Assembly (NCBI GenBank): GCA_005223085.1
Contig: NJBP01000010.1
Span: 1 to 42,656 of the forward strand
Direction: 5' to 3'
Source of the DNA: Candidatus Aerophobetes bacterium Ae_b3b
GTDB lineage: Bacteria > Aerophobota > Aerophobia > Aerophobales > AE-B3A
DNA: 42,656 bases
The notes below the pieces were generated by a model. That model saw nothing but the letters and a program-made list of their open reading frames with translations. It had not been told where the DNA came from and did not search any database. This document shows, one piece after another, positions 5,933-25,294 of this stretch. How positions within the stretch are numbered: the stretch's first letter is position 1; the number at the start of each line of letters is the position of its first letter. Made by a program: the position numbers and the translations under genes.

Positions 5933-7711
5933 ATGAAGTTGAAGCGAGACCACTTTTGTGGAAATTTGAATAAAAAAAACGAGGGTGAAACCATTATTTT
6001 AGCTGGATGGGTGAAAAAAAGGCGAGATCATGGAGGATTGATTTTTATTGATCTAGGTGATAAATCAGGAGTTGTTCAGGTTGTTTTCAATCCCAAGGTA
6101 GATGAAGAAAGTCACCTGCAGGCCCGCAGCTTGAGAGAAGGGTGGGTGATTGCAGTAGGGGGTAAAGTGAGAATACGCCCAATTGAATCGGTAAACCTGG
6201 AGCTCGAGACAGGAGAGATAGAAGTGATAGTGGAAAATCTGGAAATTCTAAATATATCTGAATCTCTTCCTTTTCCTATTCAAGATGAAATTGAGGCAAG
6301 TGAGGAAACCAGACTAAAATATAGATATCTGGATCTACGAAGGTCAGTGATGCAAAGAAATCTTCGCCTGAGATATGAGGTAACTAAACAGGTACGCAGT
6401 TTCCTGGATAAAAAGGGTTTTATGGAAATAGAGACTCCCTTTTTGACCCGCAGTACTCCTGAGGGAGCAAGAGATTATCTAGTTCCCTCTCGGGTAAATC
6501 CGGGAGAATTCTATGCCCTTCCTCAGTCTCCCCAGTTATTCAAACAACTTTTGATGGTGGCCGGTTTCGATCGATACTTTCAGATTGTGAGGTGTTTTCG
6601 AGATGAAGACTTACGAGCGGATAGACAGCCAGAACACACCCAGATAGACATAGAGGCCTCATTCATTGAAGAAAACGACATATATAACCTGGTCGAGCCC
6701 ATGCTGGTTCATGTATTCAAAAAAACCCTGGAAATATCTCTGAAAACTCCCTTTCCTCGTCTTGGTTATGAGGAGGCTATGGATCGATTTGGTATCGATA
6801 AACCCGACACTCGATTTGGATTGGAGTTAAAGAACATCTCTTCTTTAGCTAGCCAGAGTAAATTCCACGTCTTTCATAGGTGTTTGGCCCAGGGAGGAGA
6901 GGTGAAGGGATTGAGACTCCCCGGGGGATCTCATCTTTCTCGGAAAGAATTAGAGGACCTATCCCAGAGGATAGAACCTTACGGAGCTAAGGGATTAAGT
7001 TGGATCCTTCTTACTCCTGAAAAGATAAAATCACCTCTAAGTAAATTCTTCCCTAAGGCTATTCTTTTAAGGATAATAGAGCATATGGACGGGGAAAAAG
7101 GAGATGCTCTTTTCTTTGTAGCCGATAGAAAGGAAGTGGTGGCCACGTCTTTAGCTCAGCTTCGTCTTGATCTGGGAAAAAGGTTTAATTTAATTCCTAA
7201 GGATGTATATCAATTAGTATGGATCGTAGATTTCCCTTTATTTGAGCAAGATAAGGAAGGAAGATTGGCTGCCCGCCATCACCCCTTTACCTCCCCTAAG
7301 GAGGAAGATCTGCCCCTCTTAGAGATTGATCCAGAGAAAGTCAGGGCTCGCAGTTACGATATTGTCTTGAACGGTGAAGAAATTGGAGGAGGAAGTATAA
7401 GAATCCACCGAAGAAAAATCCAGGAGAGAATTTTAGAAATCTTAGGAATAGATTCTCTTCAGGCAAGAGAAAGATTCGGTTTTCTCCTTGAGGCTCTCTC
7501 TTTTGGGGCTCCTCCGCATGGAGGAATTGCCTTGGGGCTAGATCGTCTGGTGATGATACTAGCCAGAGCAGAGTCTATAAGGGAGGTTATCCCTTTTCCT
7601 AAAACTCAAAAAGCCGTTTCTTTAATGACCCAGGCTCCTTCCCCTGCGGATGATGAACAACTTAAAGAACTCCACATAAAGCTTAGAGAAGAGTCATTCC
7701 CGCCCCAATAA
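5933..7711 (+). CDS. aspS: Aspartyl-tRNA synthetase (bacterial type)
   Basis: YRYLDLRR, PFLTRSTPEGARDYLVPSR, FRDEDLRADRQPEHTQID, GGIALGLDRLVM. Confidence 0.96.
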   Translation: MKLKRDHFCGNLNKKNEGETIILAGWVKKRRDHGGLIFIDLGDKSGVVQVVFNPKVDEESHLQARSLREGWVIAVGGKVRIRPIESVNLELETGEIEVIVENLEILNISESLPFPIQDEIEASEETRLKYRYLDLRRSVMQRNLRLRYEVTKQVRSFLDKKGFMEIETPFLTRSTPEGARDYLVPSRVNPGEFYALPQSPQLFKQLLMVAGFDRYFQIVRCFRDEDLRADRQPEHTQIDIEASFIEENDIYNLVEPMLVHVFKKTLEISLKTPFPRLGYEEAMDRFGIDKPDTRFGLELKNISSLASQSKFHVFHRCLAQGGEVKGLRLPGGSHLSRKELEDLSQRIEPYGAKGLSWILLTPEKIKSPLSKFFPKAILLRIIEHMDGEKGDALFFVADRKEVVATSLAQLRLDLGKRFNLIPKDVYQLVWIVDFPLFEQDKEGRLAARHHPFTSPKEEDLPLLEIDPEKVRARSYDIVLNGEEIGGGSIRIHRRKIQERILEILGIDSLQARERFGFLLEALSFGAPPHGGIALGLDRLVMILARAESIREVIPFPKTQKAVSLMTQAPSPADDEQLKELHIKLREESFPPQ

Positions 7712-7874: not shown

Positions 7875-9830
7875 ATGACATTGGAAGGTAAAGTGAAGTA
7901 TATCAAAGTGGTATTGAATCTTCCTTTGAATCAATCCTTTGCTTATAAGGTTCCTGCAGAAGTCAGCTCTCGAGTCAAGATAGGGGGAAAAGTGCTGGTT
8001 CCCTTTAGGAGGAAAATCCTGAGCGGTTTTGTGGTGGACCAGATAGAAAGAGAACAGAGCAGGGGAAATCTAAAGGAAATTATCAAGGTGATGAAAGATT
8101 TTCCTCCTCTAAGTAATAGTTTTATTGAGCTGGGAAAGTGGATAAGTGATTACTATTATTGTTCCTTAGGGCAGGCTCTTCATTCAATCTTTCCCATCCA
8201 GGAGACCTTTAGAATCCAGAGAAGCAAAGAGAGCGAGAGAAAAACTTCTGCTGGTCAAAAATTTGGAAAATTAAGCTCTAGGGTGGGGAAAAATAATGAG
8301 AGCGTTTTTTTTCTTAAAGAAAAAGGGGTCTTTCTTTTTAAAACAGAGGATAATGAGAAAAGGAAATCTTTATACCTTCCCTTGATAAAAAAAACCCTGG
8401 AGAGAGAAAGGCAGGTTATCTTAATTGTTCCTGAAATCAGTTATCTTCCTATTTTGGAAGAGTTGATCCACTCTTATTATGAAGGAGAAATAGCTATTCT
8501 TCATAGTCGCCTTTCCTCCAAACAAAGATATGAAGAATGGTGTAAAATAAGCAGGGGAGAGGTATGGCTGGCCATAGGGACGCGATCAGCCGTATTTGCT
8601 CCCTTTAGCAGATTAGGCTTAATTATAGTTGAAGAAGAAGAGAATTCTGCCTATAAACAGATAGAAGTACCGCGCTATCACCTGCGGGATGTTGCTATTA
8701 AACGGGCAGAAATAGAAGATTTTTCCGTAGTTCTATTCACGGCAAGTCCTTCGTTGGAATCCTGGCATCGGGCAAAAAGGGGAATTTATAAATTTGTTGA
8801 ATTTTCTCGAAATGATAGTAAATCTCGCCAGGTGAGAGTTATAGATATGCGTAAGGAAAAAGATAGAATCTTTTCCTTGACTTTGGAAGAAGAAATAGAG
8901 AAAAATCTAGAGGAAGATAATCCTGTCCTTCTTTTTTTTAATAGACGTGGTTTTGCTAATTTTCTCCTCTGTCATGAATGTGGAAAAGTACCTCGTTGTC
9001 CTAATTGCGATATAAGTTTTACCCTTCATTTGAGGGGTAAGTTAACTTGCCATTATTGCGGTTATGAAGAAAAAGCTCCTCGAGTTTGTCCTTCCTGTAA
9101 GGGGAGCTACGTTCGTGGTGTAGGATTAGGGACAGAACAGTTAGAGATAGAAGTGAAAAAGAAATTTCCCAAAGCTTGTGTCAGGCGCGGTGATCTGGAT
9201 ATCATCAATTCTTCTTTGCTCTATAAAAAGCTAAGGAGTGATTTGATAGAGAAAAAAATTGATATTTTAGTGGGCACCCAGTTGATTATCAGAGAAGAGA
9301 TTTTATCCTGTATAGGCCTGGTAGGTATCATTCTAGCAGATGGTTTACTAAATCTACCTGACTTTAGAGCGGGAGAATATCTTTTCCAACTTCTTACCAA
9401 GATAAAAAGATTAATGAAACCTCAAGGCAGGTTGATTATTCAGACTTACAATCCTACTCACTATACTATAGAAGCATTGGCAGGAAAAGAAGAGAATTTT
9501 TATGAGAGAGAAGCTCAGATAAGGAAAGATTTAGAGTATCCACCCTATCTGCATTGGGTAAGAATCCTTCTAGAGGGAAAAATAAAGACAAAAGTAGAAG
9601 AAACGGCAGAAGCACTGAGAGAAAAAATAGAGGGAGAAGGAATAGAATTTTTGGGCCCTGCTCCCTGTCCTTTTGCTAAAATAAAAGAAAAATATCGCTA
9701 TCATCTGGTTTTAAAAGATAAAAATTTGTCTTCCATAAGGCAAATTCTAGAAAAAAAACTGAACCCTTTATTTAGTGGTATTCAAGGAGTTAGGGGAATA
9801 GTGGATGTAGATCCCTTGCGAACAATGTAA
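7875..9830 (+). CDS. priA: PriA-family primosomal protein N' homologue with degenerate helicase motifs
   Basis: Alignable throughout to PriA (VPEISYLP, GTRSAVFAPF, YKQ...RYHLRDVA, RRGFANFLLCHECGKVPRCPNCD, CHYCGYEE..CPSCKG, LNLPDFRAGE); motifs I, II, V and VI not conserved. Confidence 0.9.
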   Translation: MTLEGKVKYIKVVLNLPLNQSFAYKVPAEVSSRVKIGGKVLVPFRRKILSGFVVDQIEREQSRGNLKEIIKVMKDFPPLSNSFIELGKWISDYYYCSLGQALHSIFPIQETFRIQRSKESERKTSAGQKFGKLSSRVGKNNESVFFLKEKGVFLFKTEDNEKRKSLYLPLIKKTLERERQVILIVPEISYLPILEELIHSYYEGEIAILHSRLSSKQRYEEWCKISRGEVWLAIGTRSAVFAPFSRLGLIIVEEEENSAYKQIEVPRYHLRDVAIKRAEIEDFSVVLFTASPSLESWHRAKRGIYKFVEFSRNDSKSRQVRVIDMRKEKDRIFSLTLEEEIEKNLEEDNPVLLFFNRRGFANFLLCHECGKVPRCPNCDISFTLHLRGKLTCHYCGYEEKAPRVCPSCKGSYVRGVGLGTEQLEIEVKKKFPKACVRRGDLDIINSSLLYKKLRSDLIEKKIDILVGTQLIIREEILSCIGLVGIILADGLLNLPDFRAGEYLFQLLTKIKRLMKPQGRLIIQTYNPTHYTIEALAGKEENFYEREAQIRKDLEYPPYLHWVRILLEGKIKTKVEETAEALREKIEGEGIEFLGPAPCPFAKIKEKYRYHLVLKDKNLSSIRQILEKKLNPLFSGIQGVRGIVDVDPLRTM

Positions 9831-9859: not shown

Positions 9860-12484
9860 ATGACAGGAAATGAGATTAGAAGAAGGTTTCTCGATTTTTT
9901 TAAGGAAAGGGGCCATCTCATTCAGCCATCGGCGCCCTTATCGATCGATGACCCTGCACTTTTATTTATTATTGCAGGAATGGTTCCTTTTAAGGCATTC
10001 TTTTTAGGGAAAAAGAGACCTCCAGCTTCTCGTCTTGCTTCTTGTCAAGTTTGTTTTCGTACCAACGATCTGGAGAAAGTAGGCCAGACTCCTCACCATC
10101 ATACTCTTTTTGAGATGCTGGGTAATTTCTCCCTGGGTGACTATTTCAAAGAAGAGGCTTGTGAGTGGGGGTGGGAATTTGTTACTAAAGAATTGGGCTT
10201 AAAGGAAAAAAATCTGTGGATTACCATATTCAGAGAAGATGAGGAGACTCACCGGATCTGGAAAAAAATAGGTATTGCTCCCTCAAAGATCTTAAAAAAA
10301 GGTGAAGAAGACAACTTCTGGTCTTTAGGTGAAGTGGGGCTCTGTGGACCGGACACAGAGATTTTCTTTGATAGGGGCCAAAGCTTTGGCTGTGCAAGAT
10401 CAGATTGTGAGCCGGGGTGTGGCTGCTCAAGATGGGTCGAACTCTGGAATCTTGTTTTCATGCAGTTCAATCGAGACAAACTCGGGAGATTCTCTCCCCT
10501 GCCTTCAAAAAACATCGACACTGGAATGGGTTTGGAAAGGACTGCTTCAGTGCTCCAGGGAGTAGAGGACGATTATCAGACTGATTTATTCAGTCCCATT
10601 CTTGATTGGTTGAAAAATCTTCTTCCCGAGAAGATATATGAAGAAAAGAGCTTCAGGACAATCTGTGATCATCTGCGTGCCTTAACCTTTCTCTTGGGAG
10701 AGGAAATTCTACCTTCCAACGTGGGGAGGGGATATGTGGTGAGGAGAATTCTTCGACGTGCTCACCGCCTGGGGAGAAAATTGGGTCTGGAGGATCCTTT
10801 CCTTTATCAGGGCGTAAGTACGGTGGTCAAATTAATGGAAGAACCCTATCCTCATCTAAAAAAGAAGCAAGGCGAGATAGCCTCGGTCATTAAGGCAGAG
10901 GAAGAGAACTTTCGGGATACTTTAAGCAGAGGAATGAGAATTCTAGACGCCCTAATCGGGAATTTAAAAGCAAAGGGAAAGAAACTGATTCCTCCCCGAG
11001 ATGTCTTTCGGCTATACGATACTTACGGTTTTCCTATAGAGCTAACCGCGGAAATAGCTCTAGAGGAAGGGTTAGCCATAGATAAAAAGGCGACTGAACT
11101 CCTGTTAGCAGAACAGAAAAAATGGGGAAGAGAGGATTTTAGAAAAAAGAGACAGGATATGAGACAGTTCACTGCGTCAACTCACCTCACGCGTCTAAAA
11201 GAACAAATGGGAAGAGTAGAGTTTAAAGGATACGAAGCCTTGAGATTGGAGACGACCCTGGTAGGAATTATTAAAAAAAAGAGCTTAGCTAAGGAGTTAA
11301 ATCAAGGGGAGGAGGGAGAACTTATCCTGAAATCCACTCCTTTTTATCCGGAGGGAGGTGGACAAATAGGAGACCAGGGTCTGATATTTACCTCTAACAG
11401 TCGAGCCCAGGTAGTGGATACTCAGAAAATGGATGAGGAGCTCATTCTTCACCGAGTGAAGATGTTAAAAGGTACGCTTAAAAAGGGAGAGGAGGTAGTT
11501 GCCGAGGTTGATAAGGAAAGAAGGAAGGCTATTTCTCGTGCCCATACAGCTACTCATCTTTTGCAGGCAGTCTTGAGGGAGATCTTAGGTACAACTGTCA
11601 AACAAAGTGGTTCTCTGGTTGATGAAGATAGATTACGCTTCGACTTTACTTACTTTTCAGCTATAACCAGGCATGAGCTTCAGAAAATAACCGGTTTGCT
11701 GAACGAGAAAATAAGAGAAGTTCTTCCGGTGATGGTAGAGGAAACCACTCTGGATGAAGCACACCAGAGAGGCGCCATAGCTCTCTTTGAGCCAAAATAT
11801 GAGGAAAGAGTAAAGTTGGTAAATATTGGAGAGTTTAGCAAAGAAGTCTGTGGAGGAACTCACCTTTCTAACCTCGGAGAGATTGGATTGATGAAGATAA
11901 TCAGTGAAACAAGCATAGCCTCTGGTGTAAGGAGGATAGAGGCTTTAGTAGGGGAAAAGGCCCTAAAACAGGGTGAAGAGAAGGAAAATTTGTTAAAAAC
12001 GATAGCTACTAAATTAGGAACTTCGGAGGGTGGGATATTGGCCCGTCTTCAAGAAAAAGAGGAAAGACTTCAGAATCAGGATAGAGAGTTAAAAAGATGG
12101 CAAGAAAAGTCAGTAAATTCAAAGATCACTAAGATGTTAGAGGAGGCTGAGGAGATTGGAGGAGTCAAAGTGGTGAGTGGAAAATGGGATAATTTATCTG
12201 CCGAAATGCTCAGAGAAGTAGCAGAAAAGCTGAAGGCTAAATTAAAAAAGGGCATAGTAGTGTTAGCCTCTGTAAGTCCAAATAAAGCCTTTCTGGTAGC
12301 TACTTCCACCCAAGAGAGCCTCTCCGCTGACAAGATAATAAGAGAAGTCTCGCGTCTGGCAGGGGGAAGTGGGGGAGGAAGATGGGATTTTGCCCAGGGG
12401 GGAACCTCAGAGTCTTTAAAGGTAAGCCCAGCTTTAGAAAAGTTATCTCTTATTGTAAGCCAACTTCTGCACAAGAATCGGTAG
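9860..12484 (+). CDS. alaS: Alanyl-tRNA synthetase
   Basis: RRRFLDFFKERGH, HHTLFEMLGNFSLGDYFK, AHTATHLL editing motif, CGGTHL, GGSGGGR C-Ala motif. Confidence 0.97.
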   Translation: MTGNEIRRRFLDFFKERGHLIQPSAPLSIDDPALLFIIAGMVPFKAFFLGKKRPPASRLASCQVCFRTNDLEKVGQTPHHHTLFEMLGNFSLGDYFKEEACEWGWEFVTKELGLKEKNLWITIFREDEETHRIWKKIGIAPSKILKKGEEDNFWSLGEVGLCGPDTEIFFDRGQSFGCARSDCEPGCGCSRWVELWNLVFMQFNRDKLGRFSPLPSKNIDTGMGLERTASVLQGVEDDYQTDLFSPILDWLKNLLPEKIYEEKSFRTICDHLRALTFLLGEEILPSNVGRGYVVRRILRRAHRLGRKLGLEDPFLYQGVSTVVKLMEEPYPHLKKKQGEIASVIKAEEENFRDTLSRGMRILDALIGNLKAKGKKLIPPRDVFRLYDTYGFPIELTAEIALEEGLAIDKKATELLLAEQKKWGREDFRKKRQDMRQFTASTHLTRLKEQMGRVEFKGYEALRLETTLVGIIKKKSLAKELNQGEEGELILKSTPFYPEGGGQIGDQGLIFTSNSRAQVVDTQKMDEELILHRVKMLKGTLKKGEEVVAEVDKERRKAISRAHTATHLLQAVLREILGTTVKQSGSLVDEDRLRFDFTYFSAITRHELQKITGLLNEKIREVLPVMVEETTLDEAHQRGAIALFEPKYEERVKLVNIGEFSKEVCGGTHLSNLGEIGLMKIISETSIASGVRRIEALVGEKALKQGEEKENLLKTIATKLGTSEGGILARLQEKEERLQNQDRELKRWQEKSVNSKITKMLEEAEEIGGVKVVSGKWDNLSAEMLREVAEKLKAKLKKGIVVLASVSPNKAFLVATSTQESLSADKIIREVSRLAGGSGGGRWDFAQGGTSESLKVSPALEKLSLIVSQLLHKNR

Positions 12485-22072: not shown

Positions 22073-25000
22073 TCACTCAGAGTATAGCACATCTTTGAGC
22101 CGTTGTAAAATCTTCTCTAAAGATACCAAAAGTTCTTTCCCCTCACCTTTTTTAGAGATGATTAAATTTCTCTCATCCAGAGGAAAGGACTGAACTTCAG
22201 GTGAAAGTTTTCTTTGGATCTGAACTCGGCTATCTTGATTAAGGGGGGTGAAAGGAGAGAAAGTAGTCCAGATTTTAGATCCTTTGCTTCTGAGACACAC
22301 AATCCCCAGCTCCTTAGCTATAAGTTTTATTCGCAGGAGGCTAAGGAGATTTTTCGTCTCAGCCGGTAAAGGTCCGTAGCGATCCCGCAGCTCCTCTTTT
22401 AATTTAAGGATCTCCTCATGGTTCCTTATCTCCCCTATTCTTCGATAAAACTCAAATCTCTGTTCTTGGTAAGGCACATAGGAGGAAGGAATCCGAGCTT
22501 CCACCTTTAGATCTAAACTTATGGGTAGAGATGGTTTGACCTTTTCTCCACGTAATTTTTTAATCTCCTCGGAGAGAAGCTCTGAATAAAGAGTAAATCC
22601 TACCGCAGCTATGTGACCGTGCTGTTCTCTACCCAGAAGATTTCCCGCTCCTCTTATCTCCAAATCCTGCATAGATATGCGAAATCCAGAGCCAGGTTCT
22701 TTAAACTGGTTAATAACTTCCAGTCTTTTGCGGGCTTCATGAGTAAGTGATTTAGCTGGAGTAAAGAGAAAATAAGCGTGTCCCCTTAACCTGCCTCTAC
22801 CAACTCTCCCTCTCAATTGATAAAGGTCAGCCAGACCAAATTGTTCGGCTCCTTCCACAATCAAGGTATTTACATTGGGCATATCTATGCCTGATTCGAT
22901 AATGGTAGTGCATGTTAAAACATTGTATCTTCGTTCAAGAAAATCCCGAATAACTTTTTCAAGCTCTCTTGAAGGCATTCTTCCATGCGCCACGGCAACT
23001 TTAATTTGGGGAACCAGCGCCTTTATCTTTTCGGCAACTCTATAAATTCCCTCAATCCGATTGTAAAGATAGAAAACCTGACCTTTCCGCCCCAGTTCTT
23101 CAATTATAGCCCCTCTTATTAGCTCCTCATTATACTCTGCTACCTGCGTTTCCACATTGAGTCTCTCTTTAGGAGGAGTAACGATCATGCTCATCGATCT
23201 GACTCCCATTAACGACATATAGAGAGAGCGAGGAATAGGAGTTGCACTGAGGGTGAGGACATCCACTGAACTTCTGAGTTCTCTTAGCTTCTTCTTTTGT
23301 ATAACTCCAAATCGTTGTTCCTCATCAATGATGACCAGACCTAGATCCTTAAACTCTATGTCTTTTTGTATTAGCCTATGGGTGCCTATGACAATGTCAA
23401 CTCCTCCATTCTTGAGCTCAGCTATGATATCTTTTTGTTCTTTAAGACCTTGAAAACGGGATAGCATCTCGATCCGAATAGGATAAGCTGCTATTCTCTC
23501 TCTGAAGGTTCGGTGGTGCTGTTCGGCCAAAATAGTGGTAGGAACCAGCATAGCTACCTGCTTATTGTCCATTACCACCTTAAAGGCTGCTCGCATAGCC
23601 ACTTCCGTCTTTCCATATCCTGCATCTCCACATACCAGTCTATCCATAGGGCTAGGATTCTGCATATCCTGTTTTACCTCATGAGTGGCTCTTAACTGGT
23701 CAGGGGTCTCCTGATAAGGAAAAGAAGCCTCGAATTCAAGCTGCCAGTCAGTATCAGGAGAGAAGTGATAACCCGGTATCACTTTTCGAATAGAATAAAG
23801 TCGAAGAAGAGAAGAAGCAAGGTCTCGAGCAGCTTTTCTGACTCTTCTCTTGGTTAATCTCCACTGCCCCCCTTCTAGGCTGTAAATGGGAGGCGGGTGA
23901 TCAGAATCTCCCATATATTTATGCAATCGGTCTAGTTGGTCCAGGGGAATGTAAAGTCTATCAGTTCCTTTGTAATTTACCTGAAAATAGTCACATTTTC
24001 TTCCCTGCAGCTTCAAGGTTTTTATCCCACTGAATTTACCTATTCCATGATCAATATGTACCACATAATCGCCTCCTCGAAGTTCGGTCCATCTTTCAAT
24101 CTTCTTTTCCTCTTCACCAACCCATCTCTGCCTTCTTTCTCTATAACGTTTAAAGATATCCTCATCAGTTATAAGGACCTGTTTTACCTCATGGAAAACA
24201 AAACCTCTCCTCAGATCACCCAGAGAAATGAGAAGAGGAGGAAAGTCCTCAGACACGGAAAACTTCTCTTTTAATGGTATTTCGAGATCTCTTTCTTCAA
24301 ATAGCTCCTTCAATCTTTCACCCTGCCCTCGATTGGGGGTCAGAAGAACTATTTTGTATCTTCTTTTTCTCCATGATTTTATGTCCTGAATTAACAAATC
24401 AAAATGACCCTGGTAAGAAGGTAAACAGTTGCAGGAAACTGACATACTCTCCCGGGGCTTCATCCAGGAGGTCTTTCGGGCCAAGGTGGAAAGATACAAA
24501 TGAGGAGACTCCAAAATAGGTTTAAGTGTTTTATCCTCAGGATTTGCCCATTTTTCTGGCCGATCCTGAATCTCGCCCGGTTCATCTAAAATTATAGCAA
24601 AGGAAGGAAAAGCCTCAAATAAAGAATAAAGTCTTCCATCTGTCTTCTTGCTCAAAGCTAGCTCATCTTTAGAAGACAAAACAACCTCTCTTTTCTTTCC
24701 CACGGAGGACTGCGTCTCGGGATTAAATTCTCTAATCGATTCTACAGTATCTCCAAAAAGCTCGATCCTGATAGGTCTGAGGTAAAGAGGAGAATAAAAA
24801 TCTACAATCCCTCCCCGAAAGGAATAATCACCTTTTTCTTGCACCAAGGGAAAAAACTCATATCCTCCTTCAGTCAAGTGTTTTATAAGTGTATCTCGAT
24901 TTACCGTCTTCCCTCTTTTCACTAAAAAACAATCCTCATCCAAGCTAGATGCCTCTGGCACTTTTTGGCGGAGAGCATCTAAAGAGGATACTACCAGGAT

Positions 25001-25294
25001 GTTATCTTCTTTCCTCAATTGATGCAGAATCCTAAGACGTTTTCCAGTTTGGTCCTTTTCTTGAGATGGAAAAAGGGAAATTTTTCCGTCTGAGGGAAGC
25101 AAGGGAAGCAAATCTTGGTAGGTATTCTCAGCCTCTGATTCACTGGGAAGAACTAATAAAAAAGGAACCTTCAACTCTTTACTCAGGAGGGCTACTACAT
25201 ATAATTTAGCCTCCTGAGTCAAGCCGTAAAGCCAATAGGGAATAATTCCTTGTTTTATCTTTTGAAGACATACCTCAAGTTTGTTCCTTGCCAA
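22073..25294 (-). CDS. mfd: Transcription-repair coupling factor Mfd
   Basis: GDYVVHIDHGIGKFSG (RNAP-interaction domain), CGDAGYGKTEVAMRAAFK, DEEQRFGV, TIIESGIDMPN, QLRGRVGR; TTG start. Confidence 0.96.
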   Translation of the reverse strand: MARNKLEVCLQKIKQGIIPYWLYGLTQEAKLYVVALLSKELKVPFLLVLPSESEAENTYQDLLPLLPSDGKISLFPSQEKDQTGKRLRILHQLRKEDNILVVSSLDALRQKVPEASSLDEDCFLVKRGKTVNRDTLIKHLTEGGYEFFPLVQEKGDYSFRGGIVDFYSPLYLRPIRIELFGDTVESIREFNPETQSSVGKKREVVLSSKDELALSKKTDGRLYSLFEAFPSFAIILDEPGEIQDRPEKWANPEDKTLKPILESPHLYLSTLARKTSWMKPRESMSVSCNCLPSYQGHFDLLIQDIKSWRKRRYKIVLLTPNRGQGERLKELFEERDLEIPLKEKFSVSEDFPPLLISLGDLRRGFVFHEVKQVLITDEDIFKRYRERRQRWVGEEEKKIERWTELRGGDYVVHIDHGIGKFSGIKTLKLQGRKCDYFQVNYKGTDRLYIPLDQLDRLHKYMGDSDHPPPIYSLEGGQWRLTKRRVRKAARDLASSLLRLYSIRKVIPGYHFSPDTDWQLEFEASFPYQETPDQLRATHEVKQDMQNPSPMDRLVCGDAGYGKTEVAMRAAFKVVMDNKQVAMLVPTTILAEQHHRTFRERIAAYPIRIEMLSRFQGLKEQKDIIAELKNGGVDIVIGTHRLIQKDIEFKDLGLVIIDEEQRFGVIQKKKLRELRSSVDVLTLSATPIPRSLYMSLMGVRSMSMIVTPPKERLNVETQVAEYNEELIRGAIIEELGRKGQVFYLYNRIEGIYRVAEKIKALVPQIKVAVAHGRMPSRELEKVIRDFLERRYNVLTCTTIIESGIDMPNVNTLIVEGAEQFGLADLYQLRGRVGRGRLRGHAYFLFTPAKSLTHEARKRLEVINQFKEPGSGFRISMQDLEIRGAGNLLGREQHGHIAAVGFTLYSELLSEEIKKLRGEKVKPSLPISLDLKVEARIPSSYVPYQEQRFEFYRRIGEIRNHEEILKLKEELRDRYGPLPAETKNLLSLLRIKLIAKELGIVCLRSKGSKIWTTFSPFTPLNQDSRVQIQRKLSPEVQSFPLDERNLIISKKGEGKELLVSLEKILQRLKDVLYSE

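Follow-up and report, generated by a model that had tools for sequence, protein, structure and literature searches.

A PriA without a helicase motor in Aerophobota, probably kept as a fork-binding scaffold, and its counterparts across Bacteria

The only PriA ortholog found in the genome of Candidatus Aerophobetes bacterium Ae_b3b has lost its ATPase motor SPECIFICALLY, as seen when its motifs are compared with those of 66 intact PriAs. Probably, the protein can neither bind or hydrolyze ATP nor unwind DNA and is kept as a fork-binding scaffold that loads DnaB. The gene lies in a stretch of 42,656 nucleotides, here called the window, from an assembly of 2.04 Mb that is 88.6% complete. The nearest relative, a genome of the same genus (G001), and a Candidatus Aerophobetes MAG contig, JAUWXE010000062.1 (CSMAG_2676), give the same match (2-766, 93%), in line with placement in Aerophobota. 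A first, sequence-only reading of this DNA treated the protein as one odd case; instead, the motor is missing throughout the phylum, and the Aerophobota case is one of many in Bacteria. The span given at that time, 8315-9430, covers only the helicase core (aa 148-519), while the full open reading frame runs from 7875 to 9830 on the plus strand. The features of the locus, with the basis for each, are as follows.

5933-7711, plus strand: aspS, conserved neighbor upstream of priA (open reading frame list, synteny)
7875-9830, plus strand: priA, encoding the motor-dead PriA, 651 aa (open reading frame, TIGR00595 score, single copy)
7905-8195, plus strand: 3′-DNA-binding domain (3′BD), kept, aa 11-107 (PF17764, 86.7 bits)
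8196-8324, plus strand: linker, aa 108-150, at the site of the winged helix and the LTxxQ pre-motif helix of ordinary PriA (alignment, pLDDT)
8343-8366, plus strand: former Walker A, aa 157-164, TEDNEKRK for GVTGSGKT, with Arg163 at the Walker Lys position (alignment)
8631-8642, plus strand: former motif II, aa 253-256, EEEE for DEEH (alignment)
8736-8753, plus strand: former motif III, aa 288-293, FTASPS for GSATPS (alignment)
8970-9098, plus strand: cysteine-rich region (CRR), zinc Cys 366, 369, 375, 378, 392, 395, 405, and 408 (PF18319, Cys count)
9273-9302, plus strand: former motif V, aa 467-476, GTQLIIREEI (alignment)
9348-9371, plus strand: LNLPDFRA block, aa 492-499, nearly invariant (alignment)
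9399-9422, plus strand: former motif VI, aa 509-516, KIKRLMKP for QVxGRxGR, arginine finger lost (alignment)
9543-9815, plus strand: PriA C-terminal domain (CTD), kept, aa 557-647 (PF18074, 73.1 bits)
9860-12484, plus strand: alaS, conserved neighbor downstream of priA (open reading frame list, synteny)

Walker A and the arginine finger of motif VI are gone, little is left of motifs III and V, and DEEH has lost its D and H; neither the GxxxxGK[ST] nor the QxxGRxGR pattern of an active SF2 PriA helicase is found, and both Walker A and Walker B are broken in what is otherwise a PriA ortholog, as in a pseudohelicase of the Deinococcus radiodurans type. Across 97 positions at least 90% conserved among the 66 intact PriAs, the window PriA keeps 7 of the 24 in the motor motifs (I, II, III, V, and VI) and 65 of the 73 elsewhere (Fisher p 5e-8). 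The statement that every motif was eroded holds for the eroded motifs quoted in its support but goes too far, as Ia (VPEIS), Ib (GTRSAVFAPF), IV (NRRGFA), IVa (GLGTEQLE), and LNLPDFRA are still present and motif II retains two of its acids. Given those acids and the several intact motifs, some residual nucleotide binding may persist. The motor motifs are intact in the same genome's Mfd (window 22073-25294, minus strand) and RecG (outside the window), and thus motor loss is not genome-wide.

The TIGR00595 priA profile scores 470.7 bits against a cut-off of 230.35, making it a member of the ortholog family, and PRK05580 models fit far better than PRK14873 models (NCBIfam). A check for a second intact priA, suggested at the outset, returned no other match above the TIGR00595 cut-off in the 88.6% complete assembly. 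The 3′BD (PF17764), zinc ribbon (PF18319), and C-terminal domain (PF18074) are all matched above their Pfam cut-offs; DEAD, ResIII, and Helicase_C, which score strongly in intact PriAs, have no match in the window PriA even at E<=10. Motif reading and a cysteine count bear out the earlier claim that all eight zinc cysteines and LNLPDFRA are kept. The claim of an end-to-end alignment to PriA is right for most domains but not for the winged-helix domain and the LTxxQ helix before motif I, which are absent, about 40 variable residues standing in their place. The winged helix is a feature of E. coli PriA, and other short PriAs that were aligned are also short-linkered, so we do not treat it as defining.

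The predicted structure is consistent with this picture. An AlphaFold2 model (pLDDT 83, pTM 0.85) has the PriA fold, and every one of its nine top PDB matches is a PriA, with the fork-bound E. coli structure 8fak and a winged-helix deletion (6dcr) ranking first. Residues 110-145 are unstructured in the model, with pLDDT below 30 over most of the stretch. In an identically modeled intact control from Thermoanaerobacter (L028), the winged helix is ordered and the helix after the P-loop starts at the Walker Lys; in the window model, this helix starts at aa 160, three residues ahead of Arg163, which stands at the equivalent position. Given this early onset, the prediction is that no phosphate-binding loop is left.

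The same state is found across the phylum. A priA match is present in 15 of 17 Aerophobota genomes, and wherever the gene is long (14 genomes, namely that of the window and those of L088-L100), Walker A, V, and VI are missing and the eight zinc cysteines kept; fragments from a genome of the same genus (G001) agree where they overlap. The assemblies are metagenome-assembled genomes (MAGs), about 70-93% complete, and while a second priA could be missed in a single one, it could not plausibly be missed in all. Motor loss is at least as old as the common ancestor of the sampled Aerophobota. That the frame was intact, with aspS and alaS alongside and no decay, had been noted for the window alone; open frames, synteny, and dN/dS extend this to the phylum, with aspS and/or alaS adjoining priA in 14 of 14 other genomes. 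Selection for a motor-dead PriA had also been proposed, and the dN/dS check is in line with it, giving purifying values comparable to those of the neighbors: in the nearest pair, 0.18 for the C-terminal and 0.25 for the N-terminal piece of priA, 0.19 for alaS, and 0.16 for aspS, and in wider pairs with usable dS, about 0.15-0.27 for priA (NG86). The former first lobe, at 0.11-0.33, is similar to other PriA domains. Within Aerophobota, column entropy is 2.06, 1.08, and 1.43 bits for motifs I, III, and VI (0.20, 0.24, and 0.53 in intact PriAs), and the CRR (0.97 bits), LNLPDFRA (0.05 bits), and an aromatic-rich loop are tightly held; a GTxLxIKEEI-like block is conserved at former motif V. As read from these alignments, drifting motor motifs beside a tight CRR and LNLPDFRA are the pattern of a protein retained for binding rather than catalysis.

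How might such a protein act? We observed motif loss, domain retention, purifying selection, synteny, the predicted fold, and the presence of DnaB and DciA; we infer that the window PriA lacks ATPase activity, binds forks, and recruits DnaB. Probably, the ability to translocate along and unwind DNA went with ATP binding and hydrolysis. The 3′BD would take the 3′ end of the leading strand, and the former helicase lobes, CRR, and CTD would hold the fork and lagging-strand single-stranded DNA (ssDNA); the fork-bound complex would then recruit DnaB, probably together with DciA, to lagging-strand stretches that are single stranded to begin with. By analogy, the parts kept are those that serve fork binding and DnaB loading in E. 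coli and D. radiodurans. When E. coli PriA binds a fork, the CRR swings to form a pore around the lagging-strand ssDNA, and docking sites are exposed; K230A PriA, which has no ATPase, loads DnaB with PriB, DnaT, and DnaC, and PriA-PriB restart in vivo does not need helicase activity (PMC10175261). K230R (priA300) PriA supports SDR initiation, and motor mutants of E. coli PriA suppress recG defects (PMC7326373). D. radiodurans, which has no PriB or DnaT, has a PriA with no ATPase or unwinding activity that binds ssDNA, forks, and DnaB (PMC4504706). In Aerophobota, DnaB is strong in 15 of 17 genomes, DciA is found in 16 of 17, and DnaD is found in none of the 17, which is replication machinery of the DnaB/DciA type; judging from gene presence, the partner of PriA would be DnaB with DciA.

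It is possible, although we lean against it, that PriA is a scaffold and that a separate helicase (UvrD/Rep-like, RecG, or another) clears the nascent lagging strand, as the sequence-only reading proposed. A UvrD-family gene is found in most Aerophobota genomes and RecG in that of the window, and the D. radiodurans authors raised the same possibility (PMC4504706). However, the UvrD family gave no match in two genomes estimated at 90% (G010) and 92% (G014) completeness, and we have dropped it as a universal partner of motor-dead PriA; in addition, the E. coli motor is dispensable at forks with ssDNA lagging arms, where K230A loads DnaB (PMC10175261).

We also looked for motor-dead PriAs across Bacteria. 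Of 290 genomes sampled from the whole domain, 274 had a PriA match, and the low scorers among these were searched again and their sequences retrieved and read. A motor-dead or half-eroded PriA is carried by at least 36 of the 274, which represent Aerophobota and about 23 other families. The count is a minimum because only some of the high scorers were read (about 60), all of which proved intact. The 36 break down into 8 from Aerophobota, 26 from 21 other families, and the half-eroded pair G053 and G061; L008, outside the sample, is another motor-dead PriA, and the least certain calls are G051 and G262. The two classes are clear: GK[ST] and GRxGR are found in 66 of 66 intact rows and motif VI in 0 of 37 dead rows, with the eight zinc cysteines surviving in 35 of the 37. 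Each dead genome has one PriA match, a few in split pieces. We found no published survey of motor-dead PriAs or of their recurrence across Bacteria in the literature searched, within which subscription journals are thinly covered. The Aerophobota PriA is a further, thoroughly stripped case of a kind of pseudohelicase already described in Deinococcus-Thermus, and the recurrence across Bacteria is new here.

The half-eroded PriAs of G053 (L102) and G061 (L119) keep GPPRTGKT or GPPRSGKT, have DGEE or ESEE at motif II, and have lost V and VI, possibly as an intermediate or as a form that binds ATP without hydrolysis. L158, the priA of G081, is motor-dead and seems to be without the entire cysteine-rich region, a gap that an alignment effect could explain. 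Reduction has gone further in the priA of a 0.6-Mb genome (L151, in G209), where four of the eight zinc cysteines are missing along with the motor. Open frames of about 2465-2605 aa across rpoB in G053, G061, G081, G138, and G268 suggest an rpoB-rpoC fusion; these apparent fusion lineages are deep and also have a motor-dead or half-eroded PriA.

Two possible generalizations did not hold up. DciA does not explain motor loss: 23 of 28 dead genomes have it, as do 43 of 52 intact ones, so there is no association. In a gapped alignment, nearly every lineage (17 of 20) seemed to have Arg or Lys at the Walker Lys position; with ungapped spacing, the counts are 8 of 19 for Arg and 9 of 19 for Arg or Lys. 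Even so, Arg replacing the Walker Lys across dead lineages, as in Deinococcus, could represent a shared lock or simply the easiest first substitution.

That leaves the question of how often the motor was lost. With 68 genomes in an RpoB tree, the intact or dead label needs 12 changes in a quick version and 11 in a careful one (bootstrap range, 10-12), of which well-supported branches force 8 and 5, respectively; this count would fail if dead or intact priA had been transferred. The RpoB tree was built because the PriA gene tree, which gives 5 changes, is unresolved, with long dead branches joined, and does not reject a single dead clade (AU p 0.456); we have set the gene tree aside as a counter of losses. 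There were probably several independent motor losses in Bacteria, with Aerophobota one of them. The early claim of independence from Deinococcus is made plausible by the RpoB tree, but the PriA gene tree is compatible with a shared origin. We consider it rather unlikely that every motor-dead PriA traces back to a single ancient loss, or to a few, passed on vertically or by transfer, in which case Aerophobota would not be independent: the gene tree allows this but is dominated by its long dead branches, and the RpoB counts and the presence of dead and intact PriAs in sister rows (G100/G113, G262/G132, and G202/G115) speak against it. The loss may predate the phylum, as dead G138 and G268 group with Aerophobota on the quick RpoB tree (98 support), a grouping that the careful tree does not settle.

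One can envision, at even odds in our judgment, that the motor has been lost repeatedly in Bacteria, perhaps ten or more times, while the zinc-dependent DNA clamp was kept, so that what selection maintains in PriA is at its core a passive clamp that recognizes forks and loads DnaB, with the helicase optional; Arg for the Walker Lys in many dead lineages might form a salt bridge locking the lobes in a DNA-gripping state.

The remaining alternatives fare less well. It is improbable that PriA has left replication restart for another job at forks, such as fork protection or interplay with SSB or RNAP; with motor and winged helix lost, restart on duplex arms is impossible as known, but the 3′BD, CRR, and CTD surfaces with which PriA contacts forks and primosome partners are still under constraint, and a second priA was not found. 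A cryptic active helicase using ATP through an unusual site is harder still to credit. Motif II acids and Ia, Ib, IV, and IVa are partly kept and a basic residue is often at the Walker Lys position, but no Aerophobota genome has a P-loop glycine pattern or an arginine finger, the P-loop is predicted to be a helix, and in E. coli the single K230R change already abolishes ATPase (cited in PMC4504706). Finally, the lost motifs might have indicated a pseudogene, a decaying gene, or an assembly artifact, which is refuted by the same state in all sampled genera, with open frames and a whole-gene dN/dS of about 0.17-0.27; phylum-wide motor loss under purifying selection is neither decay nor artifact.

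In 2015, the D. radiodurans paper argued that conservation of the helicase motifs elsewhere suggests that unwinding by PriA matters in nature, and it named Deinococcus-Thermus as exceptions (PMC4504706); the present survey adds many more motor-dead lineages. As the motor is wholly or partly absent from one entire phylum and from about 23 families beyond it, it appears more dispensable in nature than the textbook enzyme suggests. The question becomes a comparative one, namely under what circumstances a cell can do without unwinding by PriA and what loads DnaB in that case. Motor-dead PriAs also offer naturally occurring separation-of-function variants with which restart could be dissected in DciA-using bacteria, a large group. 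Under TIGR00595, automated annotation continues to label them "replication restart helicase PriA."

Among known systems, actinobacterial PriAs are annotated as being without helicase motifs. Motor motifs are also missing in G123 and G252, which we take as actinobacterial from resemblance only; such PriAs, matched by PRK14873 models, are much more divergent than the window PriA. The E. coli deletion protein 6dcr, one of the two best fold matches, is likewise without a winged helix, but its motor is intact. E. coli K230A and K230R are also ATPase-less PriAs that assemble primosomes and load DnaB (PMC10175261, PMC7326373), a role that by analogy the window PriA would share. Those proteins carry one engineered substitution in a complete helicase and work with PriB, DnaT, and DnaC, whereas the Aerophobota loss is natural, multi-motif, and ancient, with DciA instead. 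Closest is D. radiodurans PriA, an ortholog with degenerate Walker A and B and with its DNA-binding parts kept, in which Arg replaces the Walker Lys (PMC4504706), as does Arg163 in the window PriA. The two proteins belong to different phyla, and biochemistry exists for the D. radiodurans protein while the window PriA is known from sequence; set against the published description, the window PriA is also without the P-loop glycines, motif VI, and the winged helix.
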